From a virus, in the IMG/VR virus record IMGVR_UViG_3300015263_000213, positions 1 through 20,016 of that record: 20,016 bases of DNA; one strand, 5' to 3'. The notes beneath the pieces were generated by a model, which saw nothing but the letters and a program-made list of their open reading frames with translations, ran no database searches and was not told the DNA's origin. Shown here one piece after another: positions 10,337-18,509 of this stretch. Made by a program: the position numbers and the translations under genes. Numbering within the stretch: the stretch's first letter is position 1; each line of letters opens with the position of its first letter.

Positions 10337-11740
10337 ATGATTTATGCTATCGCTGCACTAGCAGTTGTTGGTGTACTACTTGGTCTTGGTTTGTTCCTTG
10401 CCCTGCTATTCCGTAGGGTTGTTCCGACCAACATGGTACACATTGTACAGTCCTCAAAGAAGACCATTTCATATGGTCGTGGTCGTGAAGCTGGAAACAC
10501 TTATTACGAGATTCCTTCCTTCATTCCCGTCTTTGGTGTCACTGTAACTCAGTTCCCAGAATCGATCTTTGACATTTCACTTCGTGATTATGAAGCATAC
10601 GATACTGGCCGTCTACCATTCGTGGTTGACATTAAGGCATTCTTCCGTATTGCTGACTCACAGATTGCCGCACAACGTGTTGCAAACTTCAGTGAACTAC
10701 AGAATCAGCTAATGGGTGTTCTACAGGGTGCTGTTCGTGGTATTCTTGGCAATAACAAGCTAGAGAATATCATGCAGGATCGTTCAAATCTTGGTGAACA
10801 GTTCACTAAGGAAGTCAATGATCAGCTACAGGAATGGGGTGTTACTACTGCCAAGATGATCGAATTCATGGATATTCGTGACTCAAGTGGTTCACAGGTT
10901 ATTCAGAATATGATGGCTAAGGAAAAGTCACGTATTGAAAAGGAAAGCCGTGTTACCGTTGCTGATAACATTCGTGAAGCTGAAATGAAGGAAATCGAAG
11001 CCAAGCGTGAAATCGCTCTGACTCGTACTCAGGCAGAACAGCAGGTTGGCATTCGTCAGGCGGAAGCCGAAAAGGAAGTCGGTATTGCCAAGGAAAAGTC
11101 AAATCAGCAGGTTCAGACCGAAGCCAAGATTACCACTGAAAAGGTAATGGAAGTCCAGAAGGTCCAGAACGTTAAGCAAGCTGAAATTGACAAGGAAGTT
11201 GCTATCGTTAAGGCTAACGAACAGAAGCAGGTTCAGGTTGTCAATGCTCAGGCTACTAAGGAAGCCCAGATCATTAAGGCACAGGCTGAAAAGGAAGCTA
11301 CCGTACAGATTGCTGATGGTAATCTACAGGCTACTCTAAAGCAAGCTGAAGGCATTCAGGCTGAAGGTCTAGCTAAGGCAGAAGCTGAAAAGGCTATCCT
11401 ACTTGCTCCTGTTAATGCTCAGATTACCCTTGCTACTGAAATCGGTTCAAATGAGAACTATCAGAAGTACCTCATTGAAATCCGTAAGGTCGAAGCTACC
11501 GAAAACGTTGGTAAGGAAATGGCTGGTGCTATGAAGACCGCAGACCTTAAGATCATTGCCAATAGCGGTGACGTACAGTCTGGTGTCGGTAAGCTAGCTG
11601 ATGTATTCAGCCCTTCCGGTGGCACTTCAATCGCTGGTATGCTGACTGCACTATCACAGACTGAAGAAGGTCAGGCTCTGGTGAATGGTGTTGTTTCTAA
11701 GCTTGGTGGTACTCCACCAAAGGATGCACCAAAGAAGTGA
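10337..11740 (+). CDS. SPFH/band 7 (flotillin-like) membrane protein
   Basis: A 467-residue protein. Residues 2-26 form an N-terminal membrane helix (IYAIAALAVVGVLLGLGLFLALLF). From about 28 to 200 is an SPFH domain (RRVVPTNMVHIVQSSKKTISYG, then LPFVVDIKAFFRI, VRGILGNNKLENIM and WGVTTAKMIEFMDI). Residues about 205-370 form a long alanine/glutamate/lysine coiled coil rich in QAEAEKE- and KAQAEKEA-type repeats. The C-terminal part (AGMLTALSQTEEGQALVNG) is glycine-rich. This is the flotillin layout, in which oligomers organise membrane microdomains. Phage copies are uncommon and have no established function; changing the host envelope or blocking superinfection are guesses. It is the last gene of its operon, with a strong terminator 25 bases downstream. 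Confidence 0.88.
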   Translation: MIYAIAALAVVGVLLGLGLFLALLFRRVVPTNMVHIVQSSKKTISYGRGREAGNTYYEIPSFIPVFGVTVTQFPESIFDISLRDYEAYDTGRLPFVVDIKAFFRIADSQIAAQRVANFSELQNQLMGVLQGAVRGILGNNKLENIMQDRSNLGEQFTKEVNDQLQEWGVTTAKMIEFMDIRDSSGSQVIQNMMAKEKSRIEKESRVTVADNIREAEMKEIEAKREIALTRTQAEQQVGIRQAEAEKEVGIAKEKSNQQVQTEAKITTEKVMEVQKVQNVKQAEIDKEVAIVKANEQKQVQVVNAQATKEAQIIKAQAEKEATVQIADGNLQATLKQAEGIQAEGLAKAEAEKAILLAPVNAQITLATEIGSNENYQKYLIEIRKVEATENVGKEMAGAMKTADLKIIANSGDVQSGVGKLADVFSPSGGTSIAGMLTALSQTEEGQALVNGVVSKLGGTPPKDAPKK

Positions 11741-14288: not shown

Positions 14289-14489
14289 ATGAAAAAGAAA
14301 AAGGTCAAATATGCAGTACCTTGCGCTTTCACCACTGAAGGCGACTTCGATATAGAAGATGTATTCTTTTTGACCTTTCATACCAAAGATGAAGTTGAAG
14401 CATTAAAATTAGCACAGTGCGTTTGTGGCGATATGGCTGAAAAGGCACTGTGCATAATATCAGAGGATGGAGAACTTTTCCAACTTTGA
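14289..14489 (+). CDS. Small protein, unknown function
   Basis: A 66-residue protein six bases after the GP88 gene, with AAGGTGG just before the ATG. It has a basic start (MKKKKVKYAVPCAFTTEGDF), then a ferredoxin-like alternation of strands and helix (DVFFLTFHTKDEVEALKLAQCVCGDMAEKALCIIS). Three cysteines, two as CVC. No family recognised. It is probably co-transcribed with the GP88 gene; the NAD-cassette promoter lies immediately downstream of its stop. Confidence 0.65.
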   Translation: MKKKKVKYAVPCAFTTEGDFDIEDVFFLTFHTKDEVEALKLAQCVCGDMAEKALCIISEDGELFQL

Positions 14490-14491
14490 TA

Positions 14492-14520
14492 TTGACATTC
14501 TACCAACATTGAGGTAGAGT
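14492..14520 (+). promoter_or_regulatory. Promoter of the NAD cassette, palindromic spacer
   Basis: TTGACA at 14492-14497, 17-base spacer, TAGAGT at 14515-14520. TCTACC (14499-14504) and GGTAGA (14513-14518) form an inverted repeat spanning the spacer and -10, which would suit an operator. Confidence 0.68.
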
Positions 14521-14525
14521 GCACC

Positions 14526-14550
14526 AACTAACCGGAAAGACCGGATAGTT
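14526..14550 (+). promoter_or_regulatory. Leader hairpin upstream of the NAD cassette
   Basis: AACTA-a-CCGG (14526-14535) pairs with CCGG-a-TAGTT (14541-14550) around an AAAGA loop, with one A/A mismatch. It lies immediately after the expected transcription start, in a leader of about 55 nt before the gene at 14581. It could stabilise the message or act as a regulatory element; I do not recognise a known riboswitch class. Confidence 0.6.
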
Positions 14551-14580
14551 CACATTATAGCCACAAAGGAGTTTTGGGCA

Positions 14581-15675
14581 ATGGAATATGATCTACTAGT
14601 TTTCATTGGGCGTTTTCAGCCCTTTCACGTACAGCATAAGCGCATTATTGATGTTGCGCTAACCAAGGCAAAGAAGGTTCTTGTCCTTGTAGGTTCTTCG
14701 GGTAAAGCCCGCACTGTACGCAATCCCTTCACATTTGATGAACGCCGCCGCATGATTCATGATTCGTTTCTTGCGATGGACCTAGACCGCGACAATGATG
14801 TTGACGGTGTTCCTACTACTTCGCGTATCATCATCAAGCCTCTCTTTGATAAGACCTATAACGATATCGCATGGATCAATCAGGTCCAGACTGTCGTTAA
14901 GGAAACTGCACTTGACGTAATCAACAATTTTGGTTTTCGTGCCGCTGGTCTTAAAGATGCCAAGATTGGTCTGATCGGTGCTGCGAAGGATCATACTAGC
15001 TATTATTTGAAGCTGTTCCCACAGTGGGATTCGGTTGACGTTCCTATTCAGAGTTTCATGAATGCTACTGCTATTCGTGAAGGATTCCTTGCGGGTACTA
15101 TGCAGAAGCACGAGATTGTGACTAATGAAGTTACTGCTGCTGTCGCCAATTTCATGTTCAATGATTTCAAGAATGGCGAACATTATGCTCAGCTTCGCCG
15201 TGAGCTTGAACATGTGAAGAAGTACAAGGAATCGTGGAAAGCTGCACCATATGCCGTAAAGCATGTGACGGTTGATGCTGTTGTAGAACAGAGTGGTCAT
15301 ATCCTTGTCGTAAAGCGCCGTAGTGAACCGGGTAAGGGTTTGTTTGCGCTACCGGGTGGTCATCTTGAAGAATTTGAACGTCTTGAAGATGGTGTTATTC
15401 GTGAGCTAAAGGAAGAAACCAAGATCAAGGTTCCTGATCCTGTCCTTCGTGGTTCGATTCATGCTACTCATATGTTTGATGATCCTCATCGTTCAAACAT
15501 TGGTCGTGTTATTACCTATGCTGCCTACATTAAGCTTGCCGATGATACCAAGCTTCCTAAGGTAAAGGGTGCTGATGATGCTGAAAAGGCATTTTGGATG
15601 CCCATTGGCGATATGCGTGAAGACATGTTCTTTGACGATCATTTTCATATCGTCCAGTATTTCTTGGGGGTTTGA
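14581..15675 (+). CDS. nadM: Bifunctional NMN adenylyltransferase / Nudix hydrolase
   Basis: A 364-residue fusion. The N-terminal nucleotidyltransferase domain (about 1-190) has GRFQPFHVQH (10-19, the GxxxPxHxxH motif), NPFTFDERRRMI and an NATAIREGF block (161-169) in place of the usual ISSTxxR. It should join NMN and ATP to give NAD. The C-terminal Nudix domain (about 225-364) has a box at 260-282 (GHLEEFE...REL-EET-I) with the catalytic REUxEE residues; the usual glycine near its end is K281. Bacterial and KVP40-type homologues with this layout hydrolyse ADP-ribose to AMP and ribose 5-phosphate. AAAGGAG (14567-14573) gives the ribosome site. It opens the operon that also encodes a macro domain and ends with nicotinamide phosphoribosyltransferase. 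Confidence 0.92.
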   Translation: MEYDLLVFIGRFQPFHVQHKRIIDVALTKAKKVLVLVGSSGKARTVRNPFTFDERRRMIHDSFLAMDLDRDNDVDGVPTTSRIIIKPLFDKTYNDIAWINQVQTVVKETALDVINNFGFRAAGLKDAKIGLIGAAKDHTSYYLKLFPQWDSVDVPIQSFMNATAIREGFLAGTMQKHEIVTNEVTAAVANFMFNDFKNGEHYAQLRRELEHVKKYKESWKAAPYAVKHVTVDAVVEQSGHILVVKRRSEPGKGLFALPGGHLEEFERLEDGVIRELKEETKIKVPDPVLRGSIHATHMFDDPHRSNIGRVITYAAYIKLADDTKLPKVKGADDAEKAFWMPIGDMREDMFFDDHFHIVQYFLGV

Positions 15676-15677
15676 TT

Positions 15678-16166
15678 ATGCTACATCGTGTTAAAGGTAA
15701 TCTAATTGACATGGCGGAACAGGGACAGTTTAATATTATTGTCCATGGTTGTAATTGTCAAAACACAATGGGTTCTGGTATTGCCAAGGAACTTCGTACT
15801 CGTTATCCCGGTGTATATGAAGCCGACACACTAGCAGGAAAAACATGGCAGACACCAGTAGCAAAGCTTGGTAACTTTAGTACCTATGCTACGGTTGGTA
15901 AGCAAGGCAATCCATTTGTAGTGATCAATGCCTACACACAGTTGCACTATCTGCCTCGTGGTGTTGATCATTTTGAATATGAAAGCTTTTATGTTATTTT
16001 GAGAAAGCTTGAACATATTGTGAAGGATAATGTTAGTATCGGATTTCCATATATTGGAATGGGATTAGCTGGCGGAAATTCTGCTGTCATCCTTGACATG
16101 CTAGAGACATTCGCCTATAATGTGACGAAGAAGGGTGGAAAGGCTACCCTAGTGGAGTTTGGATAA
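15678..16166 (+). CDS. Macro domain ADP-ribose-processing protein
   Basis: A 162-residue single macro domain. The ADP-ribose loop reads IVHGCNCQNTMGSGIAKELRTRYPG (residues 21-45, in pieces) and the second loop IGFPYIGMGLAGGN (121-134). This layout matches Poa1p-like/phage ADP-ribose-1''-phosphate phosphatases and related ADP-ribosyl hydrolases. GGGGG (15666-15670) and a two-base gap from the nadM stop indicate coupled translation; the in-frame TTG at 15672 is not used. In context it may clear ADP-ribose-1''-phosphate from RNA ligation, reverse ADP-ribosylation, or bind NAD-derived signals. Substrate cannot be told from sequence. Confidence 0.88.
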   Translation: MLHRVKGNLIDMAEQGQFNIIVHGCNCQNTMGSGIAKELRTRYPGVYEADTLAGKTWQTPVAKLGNFSTYATVGKQGNPFVVINAYTQLHYLPRGVDHFEYESFYVILRKLEHIVKDNVSIGFPYIGMGLAGGNSAVILDMLETFAYNVTKKGGKATLVEFG

Positions 16167-16345
16167 TGATTGAAGATATTTCAGAAGAAGACAATGTGAT
16201 GCTAACTGAGTTTTCACAGGCTGTAAACAATGCCAGCCGTGAACAACTTATGTATCTCGTGGTTAACCTTACGATTGACGGTTCTCAGGAAGAGGCTCGT
16301 GGTCGTATCAAAATCGTAAAGGACTTTCTAGAAAGGGAAGTCTAA
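16166..16345 (+). CDS. Small acidic protein in the NAD operon
   Basis: A 59-residue protein whose ATG overlaps the macro-domain stop (TAATG) and whose own stop overlaps the next ATG in the same way. It is predicted helical: ISEEDNVMLTEFSQAVNNAS, EQLMYLVVNLTI and EARGRIKIVKDFLEREV. No family recognised. Its place between NAD genes, with overlaps at both ends, ensures co-translation and suggests a role linked to them, but this rests on position only. Confidence 0.68.
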   Translation: MIEDISEEDNVMLTEFSQAVNNASREQLMYLVVNLTIDGSQEEARGRIKIVKDFLEREV

Positions 16346-16695
16346 TGATTGTAATTTGTGATGATGAATTGAGTGAAAACGATTGGAATCTTTTAGTCGA
16401 TTCATCAATGCGTGATCATACATCGCAATTGTTGTTTGTGTTGGGCAGTAGAGAAAAATTCAAGGTCGCCTCAGTTGAAGGTACCAATTGGGCTTATAAT
16501 ACTCGCCGCCCAACATATTTTGAATATATGTTGTCTGATGATAATGTTGGTGAAGAAGACGCAGATTTTATTCGTGACTCTCTCAATCCAGACTATTTTA
16601 CGGCAACGTTTTCAGAACGCAATGACCGACTAGATTTGGTTGTTGACTTTTCCAAAAAACTCTCTATAAGGGGGTTCAACGTATTACAGCTTTAG
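16345..16695 (+). CDS. Unknown protein in the NAD operon
   Basis: A 116-residue acidic protein starting in a TAATG overlap. Sequence highlights: MIVICDDELSENDWNLLVDSS, LLFVLGSREKFKVASVEGTNW, TYFEYMLSDDNVGEEDADFI and NDRLDLVVDFSKKLSIRGF. No family recognised; the mixture of strands and acidic loops suggests a small folded domain. The promoter for the following nadV gene is embedded in its last 50 bases. Confidence 0.68.
   Translation: MIVICDDELSENDWNLLVDSSMRDHTSQLLFVLGSREKFKVASVEGTNWAYNTRRPTYFEYMLSDDNVGEEDADFIRDSLNPDYFTATFSERNDRLDLVVDFSKKLSIRGFNVLQL
16643..16670 (+). promoter_or_regulatory. Internal promoter for nadV
   Basis: TTGACT at 16643-16648, 16-base spacer, TATAAG at 16665-16670. It lies inside the end of the preceding gene and gives the nicotinamide phosphoribosyltransferase its own transcript with a leader of about 60 nt. 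Confidence 0.65.
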
Positions 16696-16736
16696 GATAG
16701 ACCTTTAGCTTTTAATGATTAAGGAGTTTAATCAAA

Positions 16737-18134
16737 ATGAAAAACATTATTCTCAATAGCGACAGCTACAAGTACAGCCAGTTTAACCAGTATCCTGAGG
16801 GTACTGAATACATCTACAGCTACATCGAAAGCCGTGGTGGTAAGTATGATGAGACCGTATTCTTTGGTCTACAGGCTTTCATCAAGGAATATCTTTGTGG
16901 TCCAGTAGTAACTATGGAAATGATTGATGAAGCGGAAGCTATCATCACTGCCCATGGTGAACCTTTTAACCGCGAAGGATGGGAATACATTGTGAAGGAA
17001 CACGGTGGTAATCTTCCTGTCATTATCAAGGCTGTTCCAGAAGGCACGGTTGTTGGTGTACATAATGTTCTTGCAACTATTGTCAACAATGATCCTAAGT
17101 GCTACTGGTTGACTTCGTTCCTTGAAACTGCTCTACTTCGTGCTATCTGGTATCCGACTACTGTTGCTACCAATAGCCGTGAAATTAAGAAGGTGATCCT
17201 TGATGCATTGGTACGCACTGGTAATCCAGACGATATTGGCTTTAAGCTTCATGATTTCGGTGCGCGAGGCGTATCGAGTCTTGAGTCGGCTGGCATCGGT
17301 GGAACTGCCCACCTCGTTAACTTCATGGGAACGGATACAGTCGAGGCTCTACTTTTTGCTCGTCGCTACTACGGCGCTGATATGGCTGGCTTCTCTGTTC
17401 CAGCTATGGAACACAGCACTGTAACCAGTTGGGGCCGTGAACGTGAAGTTGACAGCTATCGCAACATGGTTAAGAAGAACGGTAAGCCCGGTGGTATTGT
17501 ATCTGCTGTAAGTGACAGCTACGATATTTTCAATGCCTGTAAGCTGTGGGGTACTGAACTAAAACAAGATATCCTTGACAGCGGTGCTACTCTCGTGGTA
17601 CGTCCTGATAGTGGTCATCCGGCAACTGTTGTCCTTAAGTGCATCCAGATTCTTGACGAACACTTTGGAAGTGAAGTCAACGAAAAGGGGTACAAGGTTC
17701 TCAGCAATGTCCGTGTGCTACAGGGTGATGGTATCAATATCGATTCTGTGAAAGAAATCCTTGACACCATTATCGCAGAAGGTTATAGTGCAGATAACGT
17801 TGTCTTCGGACAAGGTGGTGCTCTTCTACAGATTGTCAATCGTGATGATCAGAAGTTTGCTATGAAGTGTTCGGCTGCTTTTGTGAATGGTGAATGGGTT
17901 GATGTTTTCAAAGACCCTATCACTGATCAGGGTAAGCAAAGCAAGAAGGGACAATTGAAGCTTGTTAAGAATGGCGGTATTGACAAGGACGGAAATCCTT
18001 GCTACATTACGGTCAATCATCACGACAAGATGTTCAACGTCCTGCATGATGAACTAGAAGTTGTTTTTAGTAACGGTAAGCTGATTCGTGACTTGACTTT
18101 CGATGAAGTCCGTGCTAATGTAGAAAAAATGTAA
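16737..18134 (+). CDS. nadV: Nicotinamide phosphoribosyltransferase (NAMPT)
   Basis: A 465-residue protein of full NAMPT length. It converts nicotinamide and PRPP to NMN. Key positions align with the human enzyme: LHDFGARGVSSLESAGIGG (171-189; R177), MGTDTV with D200 (the residue selecting nicotinamide), PAMEHST with the phosphorylated histidine H226, VSDSYDIFNAC, RPDSG (R289, D291) and FKDPITDQGKQSKKG. No catalytic residue is missing. AAGGAG (16722-16727) precedes the ATG. Together with nadM it gives the two-step nicotinamide-to-NAD route also seen in Vibrio phage KVP40 (nadV/natV) and in phage NAD-reconstitution systems that counter NAD-depleting defences. Confidence 0.95.
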   Translation: MKNIILNSDSYKYSQFNQYPEGTEYIYSYIESRGGKYDETVFFGLQAFIKEYLCGPVVTMEMIDEAEAIITAHGEPFNREGWEYIVKEHGGNLPVIIKAVPEGTVVGVHNVLATIVNNDPKCYWLTSFLETALLRAIWYPTTVATNSREIKKVILDALVRTGNPDDIGFKLHDFGARGVSSLESAGIGGTAHLVNFMGTDTVEALLFARRYYGADMAGFSVPAMEHSTVTSWGREREVDSYRNMVKKNGKPGGIVSAVSDSYDIFNACKLWGTELKQDILDSGATLVVRPDSGHPATVVLKCIQILDEHFGSEVNEKGYKVLSNVRVLQGDGINIDSVKEILDTIIAEGYSADNVVFGQGGALLQIVNRDDQKFAMKCSAAFVNGEWVDVFKDPITDQGKQSKKGQLKLVKNGGIDKDGNPCYITVNHHDKMFNVLHDELEVVFSNGKLIRDLTFDEVRANVEKM

Positions 18135-18191: not shown

Positions 18192-18253
18192 GTAACACAA
18201 GTTTGTAATATAATTACAACGCTCTTTGACATTGTAGGTAAAGAAGTTCTTAT

Positions 18254-18509
18254 TCCCTAGGAATAAAGCATGGGTAAACTGTGCCTTGTTCCTAGGGAGT
18301 TAGACTCAACAAGTATACTCTGCTAAGGGTAGCGCATATAGACGTATATGCTTGATCGGGATAGGGCCATCTTGCCCCGATGAGATAACTTTGGCAATGG
18401 CTTAGGACGGGAAGCACCCGACTCCGAAATTCGCCTGAGTGAAAAAGATTGAACAATCCGCAAGGTTGTTCTTGACAGTTCACAGGAAGCAGAGTATATT
18501 TGTTGAGTC
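18254..18509 (+). ncRNA. Candidate structured noncoding RNA upstream of tRNA-Asp
   Basis: The 381 bases between nadV and tRNA-Asp hold no supportable gene but show dense pairing. TCCCTAGGAA (18254-18263) pairs with TTCCTAGGGA (18289-18298). Arms of 22 bases (18303-18324 and 18488-18509) pair with 21 Watson-Crick pairs and one G-U. Inside them are GCATATA-GACG-TATATGC (18334-18351), ATCGGG/CCCGAT (18355-18360, 18376-18381), CGGG/CCCG (18408-18420) and GAACAA-t-CC-GCAA-GG-TTGTTC (18451-18471, GNRA loop). TCGCCTG (18431-18437) also complements CAGGCGA in the tRNA (18561-18567). No known RNA family was recognised; group I intron, tmRNA and 6S signatures were looked for and not found. Confidence 0.6.
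18472..18500 (+). promoter_or_regulatory. Strong promoter for tRNA-Asp
   Basis: TTGACA at 18472-18477, 17-base spacer, TATATT at 18495-18500. The expected start (about 18507) is some nine bases before tRNA-Asp. The -10 lies inside the right arm of the 22-bp inverted repeat, so promoter and RNA stem share sequence. Confidence 0.78.

Follow-up and report, generated by a model that had tools for sequence, protein, structure and literature searches.

A predicted phage NAD rebuilding operon with a macrodomain gene between nadM and nadV

Phage NAD rebuilding and the two enzymes of the operon

The nadV-natV genes of phage KVP40 reportedly serve phage salvage of nicotinamide adenine dinucleotide (NAD), and NARP2, said to have been described by Osterman in 2024, reportedly consists of NAMPT and a nicotinamide mononucleotide (NMN) adenylyltransferase. 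Here we describe a block of five genes on the 20,016-base virus record IMG/VR IMGVR_UViG_3300015263_000213 (hereafter the window, the whole stretch of DNA that was analyzed), in which a macrodomain gene is located between nadM and nadV. In the accessible parts of their papers, Iyer and colleagues describe a phage NAD synthesis system and propose that Macro, NADAR and Nudix proteins process host-made ADP-ribose derivatives (PMC7824862, PMC9503650); it is NADAR, not Macro, that the accessible text reports in NadM/NadV neighborhoods (PMC9503650). NARP2 is cited as a NAD-replenishing counter-defense in passages of PMC12028318 and PMC11984713, and a 2026 preprint (PMC13232231), in its accessible portion, places in a NARP1 operon an enzyme by which cyclic ADP-ribose (cADPR) signals are opened, the resulting ADP-ribose serving NAD synthesis. 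The counter-NADase reading of such genes is already published (Iyer 2021, 2022; NARP2), and the operon varies a known phage pathway rather than representing a new kind of system, while no report of a nadM-macro-nadV operon was found in the titles or abstract openings of open-licence papers. Judging from the sequences, the locus is probably an operon with which a phage rebuilds NAD in the manner of NARP2 or NAD salvage, and to which a macrodomain has been added in this phage group.

The first gene, nadM-Nudix (14581..15675, + strand), encodes a 364-residue bifunctional NMN adenylyltransferase/Nudix protein, the latter half being a predicted ADP-ribose pyrophosphatase. It scores 415.3 bits against NCBIfam NF003786 ('bifunctional NMN adenylyltransferase/Nudix', equivalog cut-off 397) and aligns end to end with the solved proteins 2qjo (E 1.9e-75) and 2qjt (E 1.8e-58), which we take to be the Slr0787-type and Francisella NadM-Nudix proteins. 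The nucleotidyltransferase motif and the Nudix box are intact, the GRFQPFH..H and T-x-x-R stretches and the Nudix-box glutamates of 2qjo all being kept, and toward the end of the Nudix box a glycine position carries K in the window protein and R in 2qjo. Solved relatives of the 2qjo/2qjt type presumably have ADP-ribose-splitting Nudix activity. The last gene, nadV (16737..18134, + strand), encodes a 465-residue nicotinamide phosphoribosyltransferase (NAMPT), which reaches 637.8 bits against NCBIfam NF006629 (equivalog cut-off 405), lies well over the cut-offs of Pfam NAPRTase and NAMPT_N, and has NAMPTs as its nearest solved structures (7yqo at E 2.3e-169, the NAMPT chain 6tac at E 4.4e-133). 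Both alignments include the GTDT and EHST stretches, which presumably contain the aspartate that selects nicotinamide and the histidine that acts in catalysis. By strong homology in each case, NadV would form NMN from nicotinamide and phosphoribosyl pyrophosphate (PRPP), and NadM would adenylate NMN to NAD. This two-step route, proposed earlier in a sequence-only reading of the locus, is well supported, as both enzymes are full length with motifs aligned to solved homologues and the nadM-nadV pair recurs in many named phages.

The same enzymes could provide a plain metabolic boost, raising NAD for replication or takeover with no defense countered and with the Nudix and macro domains as housekeeping functions, a reading that we hold to be rather unlikely. 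Phage NAD salvage is described as metabolism for KVP40 (cited in the accessible part of PMC6715854), and the tRNA genes that adjoin the operon are another host-independence feature; on the other hand, NAD-dependent DNA ligase, the obvious phage user of NAD, was found in only one of 19 related records (possibly fragments, in which misses are weak evidence), and NARP2 is cited as overcoming NAD depletion in the passages seen of PMC12028318 and PMC11984713. With one record in 19, this ligase was set aside as the cause of NAD demand.

Conservation of the macrodomain gene between nadM and nadV

Relatives of the operon were gathered with NAMPT as the query because the NadM protein, searched against viral contigs, yielded only the identical contig; the NAMPT scan works through shared short peptides and favors near relatives. 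A total of 44 loci were examined after L001 (the window itself) and L003 (the same contig as L002) had been dropped, with the window represented by L002, a contig that shows 100% identity across the matched genes. Both nadM and nadV are held in 39 of the 44, nadM always upstream, and the five loci left out (L005, L006, L024, L026 and L045) have no nadM on the fragment. A macrodomain gene lies between the two in 25 of the 39 loci, corresponding to 18 of 31 clusters at 95% NAMPT identity, none of them mixed, and it is found in the slot of L030 despite only 62% NAMPT identity. The commonest family among the other inserts occupies only 8 loci, none being as widespread as the macrodomain. On a NAMPT tree of 30 of the 31 clusters (the cluster of L039, in which the macrodomain is present, was dropped, its NAMPT hit being split; several rows have very long branches), the macrodomain label changes 4 times against a shuffled mean of 10, a value as low arising in 1 of 500 shuffles, and at least two changes are forced by well-supported branches. 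Within a group of related uncultured phages, the nadM-nadV unit includes the macrodomain as a conserved component, which is newly reported here.

For named phages, the three proteins were joined into one query and compared with 50,697 records. In the best 60 of 3,242 records, nadM and nadV are neighbors (two aligned pieces each), and none of these 60 has a macrodomain gene between them at that sensitivity and joining distance; because a record with all three genes in reach should rank high, the result is read as absence of the macrodomain from the slot among the best-ranked records. As a separate observation, the NAMPT gene is split in L039 (10001-12511), L043 and L044, residues 1-231 and 244-461 being encoded about 1.15 kb apart, with perhaps an intron or intein between them.

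The macrodomain and the proposed pathway

The macrodomain gene (15678..16166, + strand) encodes 162 residues from its ATG and matches PHROG_335 at 3.5e-43, which we take to be the phage T4 Tk.4 family, a name that also appears in annotations of matching phage records; its score against Pfam Macro is 17.5 bits, under the cut-off of 22. A structure was predicted from a 20-relative alignment, with a mean predicted local distance difference test (pLDDT) score of 88.2. Among solved structures, the top 16 rows are macrodomains that match it at Z 16.5-19.5 across 138-151 residues, led by BT1257-type, DarG, Poa1p and TARG1 macrodomains. As modeled, the gene product has a clear macrodomain fold. Literature searches for Tk.4 together with a macrodomain, and for five phrases about phage macrodomains, found no open-licence papers.

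The best sequence match in the PDB is Poa1p (6lfq-6lfu, E 6e-7 with a profile). His23 is invariant in 20 of 20 relatives and aligns with the Poa1p residue mutated in 6lfs (H23A), a chain that scores lower against the macrodomain than the other Poa1p chains; as a single residue, His23 does not prove Poa1p-type phosphatase activity. The lysine pair of the DarG N-F-P-T-K-K stretch is aligned to T-Q-x in the phage family, with lysine at either position in 0 of 20 relatives, and the lysine of this T-K-K stretch is presumably catalytic in DarG and TARG1. Because His23 is kept and the DarG/TARG1-type lysine is missing, a free ADP-ribose derivative is favored over ADP-ribosylated DNA, and we infer that the substrate is ADP-ribose-1''-phosphate or a free ADP-ribose derivative, the exact reaction being weakly supported. 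A DarG-like enzyme that removes ADP-ribose from DNA and is aimed at DarT-type toxins would agree with the PADLOC DarG profile (E 1.7e-6) and with the DarG macrodomains among the top structural matches; with the lysine positions occupied by T-Q-x and an NCBIfam DarG score of 22.3 bits against a cut-off of 250, this role is very improbable, and it was set aside on the lysine positions. No DarT toxin gene was found adjoining the macrodomain gene, whose neighbors are nadM and two orphan open reading frames (ORFs) without PADLOC or Pfam matches.

Breakdown of NAD by host NADases would yield nicotinamide and ADP-ribose, and phosphorolysis would yield nicotinamide and ADP-ribose-1''-phosphate. In the favored reading, that of a NAD rebuilding operon extended by a macrodomain, this domain would convert ADP-ribose in a blocked form, ADP-ribose-1''-phosphate being the likeliest, or would bind free ADP-ribose derivatives, and would probably feed or relieve the step carried out by the Nudix half of NadM, which probably splits ADP-ribose into AMP and ribose-5-phosphate. 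A host PRPP synthase could turn ribose-5-phosphate back into PRPP, and the net effect would be that NAD is kept up and ADP-ribose products are kept down when a host defense or toxin destroys NAD during infection. Disposal of ADP-ribose products by Macro and Nudix domains together is plausible, and the idea is already in print in the accessible parts of PMC7824862 and PMC9503650. NADAR, present in 4 of the 19 related records, was set aside as an operon member, all four matches lying outside the stretches fetched around nadV.

Several observations weigh against this reading. The macrodomain gene is not between nadM and nadV in 14 of the 39 loci, being downstream of nadV in one (L004) and outside the fetched stretch in 13, two of which (L034 and L042) have a weak macrodomain match elsewhere in the record (search of 22 records). 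L004, L008 and L018 are without the intervening gene, though their NAMPTs are 78-84% identical to that of the window, and because the gene is missing from the slot in these 14 loci, including three close relatives, the pathway does not require it. Macrodomains are also widespread among phages, with matches in 2,729 of 50,697 named records, and the fold is silent on the substrate, as DarG, BT1257, Poa1p and TARG1 entries have near-equal structure scores and these close top rows do not choose among the types. Finally, no PRPP synthase (PF13793, Adps-type) was found in the 19 related records that the search covered, all possibly fragments, so the host enzyme would be needed.

Another possibility is that the macrodomain gene, as a Tk.4-like gene, has a separate function, such as clearing ADP-ribose-1''-phosphate from KptA-type RNA repair, and owes its position in the slot to inheritance only. 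The sharing of the family by very many phages, the location of the L004 macrodomain gene amid tRNA genes at a distance of 4.3 kb downstream from nadV, and the entry of other genes into the slot are all consistent with it, whereas the macrodomain is the sole gene kept in the slot over 18 clusters while its neighbors turn over; we consider such independence doubtful. If the macrodomain does work with the NAD enzymes, the operon would be a phage recycling module that rebuilds NAD and clears its breakdown products, and the very common, uncharacterised Tk.4-like phage macrodomains would gain a testable substrate and role. A stricter version is a closed NAD repair loop of three genes, in which the macrodomain would make ADP-ribose either from ADP-ribose-1''-phosphate, which RES-type phosphorolysis of NAD produces, or from an immune signal consisting of cyclic ADP-ribose. 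The Nudix domain would then split the ADP-ribose to AMP and ribose-5-phosphate, and NAMPT and NadM would rebuild NAD from the nicotinamide set free. This loop is speculative and unlikely; if true, it would be the NARP2 counterpart of the RyDEP-NARP1 pairing and could counter defenses that plain NARP2 would not fully repair.

Operon layout, flanking RNA and relation to known systems

The five genes form one block on the + strand, in the positions assigned by the sequence-only reading, which had also described their starts as coupled and two small unknown proteins as members of the cassette. Coupling holds for the first four genes, which touch or overlap: the nadM stop codon (15673-15675) is followed by the macrodomain ATG at 15678, as read from the letters of the window, with a first in-frame TTG at 15672, and stop and start overlap at 16166 (macrodomain/ORF59) and at 16345 (ORF59/ORF116). 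It does not extend to nadV, which has a 41-base gap upstream and its own AAGGAG. The two small proteins proved to be orphans in a slot with turnover between relatives. ORF59 (16166..16345, + strand, 59 residues) matches no Pfam, NCBIfam or PADLOC family at E 0.1 (best PHROG 0.086) and has no relative in the NAMPT-collected loci except the identical contig. ORF116 (16345..16695, + strand, 116 residues, without a family) returned only the identical contig in a scan of viral contigs, and its matches to named phages are partial and weak (best E 5e-3 over 61%). The slot holds different genes in each relative, and apart from the window only the identical contig has ORF59 and ORF116; as orphans outside the conserved unit they were rejected as pathway parts and may be lineage-specific passengers.

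A promoter-like TTGACA-17-TAGAGT element (14492..14520, + strand; 10/12 matches in a consensus scan only) lies ahead of nadM, and its TTGACA is the point at which the sequence-only reading began the cassette; since the scan gave 17 sites against 10.3 expected, the match by itself proves nothing. Directly upstream of nadM, the small ORF66 (14289-14489) has counterparts in seven further loci, where its strand and its position around the operon vary. Farther away, a 467-residue ORF (10337-11740) without a PHROG match appears by eye to be of the SPFH/flotillin type and has relatives in L009 and L019. An Rfam scan gave no match inside the operon, and elsewhere tRNAs and sub-threshold matches.

Downstream, between nadV and a tRNA-Asp gene, the window carries a structured RNA (18303-18509) with a 22-pair closing stem and a minimum free energy of -81.0 kcal/mol (z -6.58). 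Six distinct core sequences of 106-108 nucleotides (window, L009, L050, L051, L052 and L058) were aligned, in which 12 of 21 pairs are changed on both sides and 96% of cells pair; the covariation score for these six is 0.663, against 0.238 when shuffled and at most 0.149 when slid. Covariation backs the structured RNA, as supportive rather than final evidence at six sequences. No match was found in Rfam 15 at E up to 5 or by blastn against named phages; the RNA model recovered only known copies and near-copies from 56 sources and two matches, both already known, from 21 whole records, and search-pattern matches in 11 bacterial or archaeal contigs (at most 16.7 bits) were dismissed as chance-like. 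Five of the six copies (window, L009, L050, L051 and L052) are in contigs with tRNA genes and that of L058 is near a transfer-messenger RNA. The element may represent a new family of phage RNAs that occurs in tRNA arrays. It is not tied to the operon, because the fetched L050-L061 stretches carry no NAD genes.

Other elements surround the tRNA region. A leader, CTCTTTGACATTGT, is located at 18222-18235, with a hairpin at 18255-18297, and similar leaders stand ahead of phage tRNA arrays in L013 (11582), L019 (11362), L051 (3021, - strand) and L052 (840, - strand), preceding the RNA copies of L051 and L052, not those of L050 or L058. This leader resembles what we take to be the boxA antitermination site of ribosomal RNA. 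Around this region, L004, L007, L009, L013, L019, L025 and L033 have long inverted repeats, imperfect and perhaps processing stems, in which an ACT..TTAGATGA-like arm is shared, and L051 carries a GOLLD RNA (RF02032, 187.5 bits; 1177-1643, - strand) about 1.1 kb from the structured RNA in the same tRNA array.

Compared with described proteins and systems, the locus combines familiar parts in a different arrangement. The two-domain architecture of NadM-Nudix is common to the Slr0787-type and Francisella proteins, the window's version being phage-borne and in an operon with nadV and a macrodomain. With Poa1p, an ADP-ribose-1''-phosphate phosphatase, the macrodomain shares the His23 column and a CNC....GGIA stretch at about 21% identity over the fold, and with the T4 Tk.4-like family (PHROG_335) it shares its sequence family, the window's member being set between nadM and nadV. 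An ADP-ribose-processing enzyme inside a NAD rebuilding operon is common to the NARP1 operon with RyDEP, as far as the accessible text of PMC13232231 describes it; there NARP1 uses ADP-ribose directly (Adps, Namat) and the extra enzyme has a RyR domain, whereas the window operon uses NAMPT and NadM and the extra enzyme is a macrodomain. The closest likeness is to NARP2 and phage NAD salvage, in which nicotinamide is likewise converted to NMN and then to NAD, nadM and nadV are adjacent in many phages, and both NAMPT and NMN adenylyltransferase have their counterparts here; the group of related uncultured phages differs by the macrodomain gene between the two in 18 of 31 clusters.

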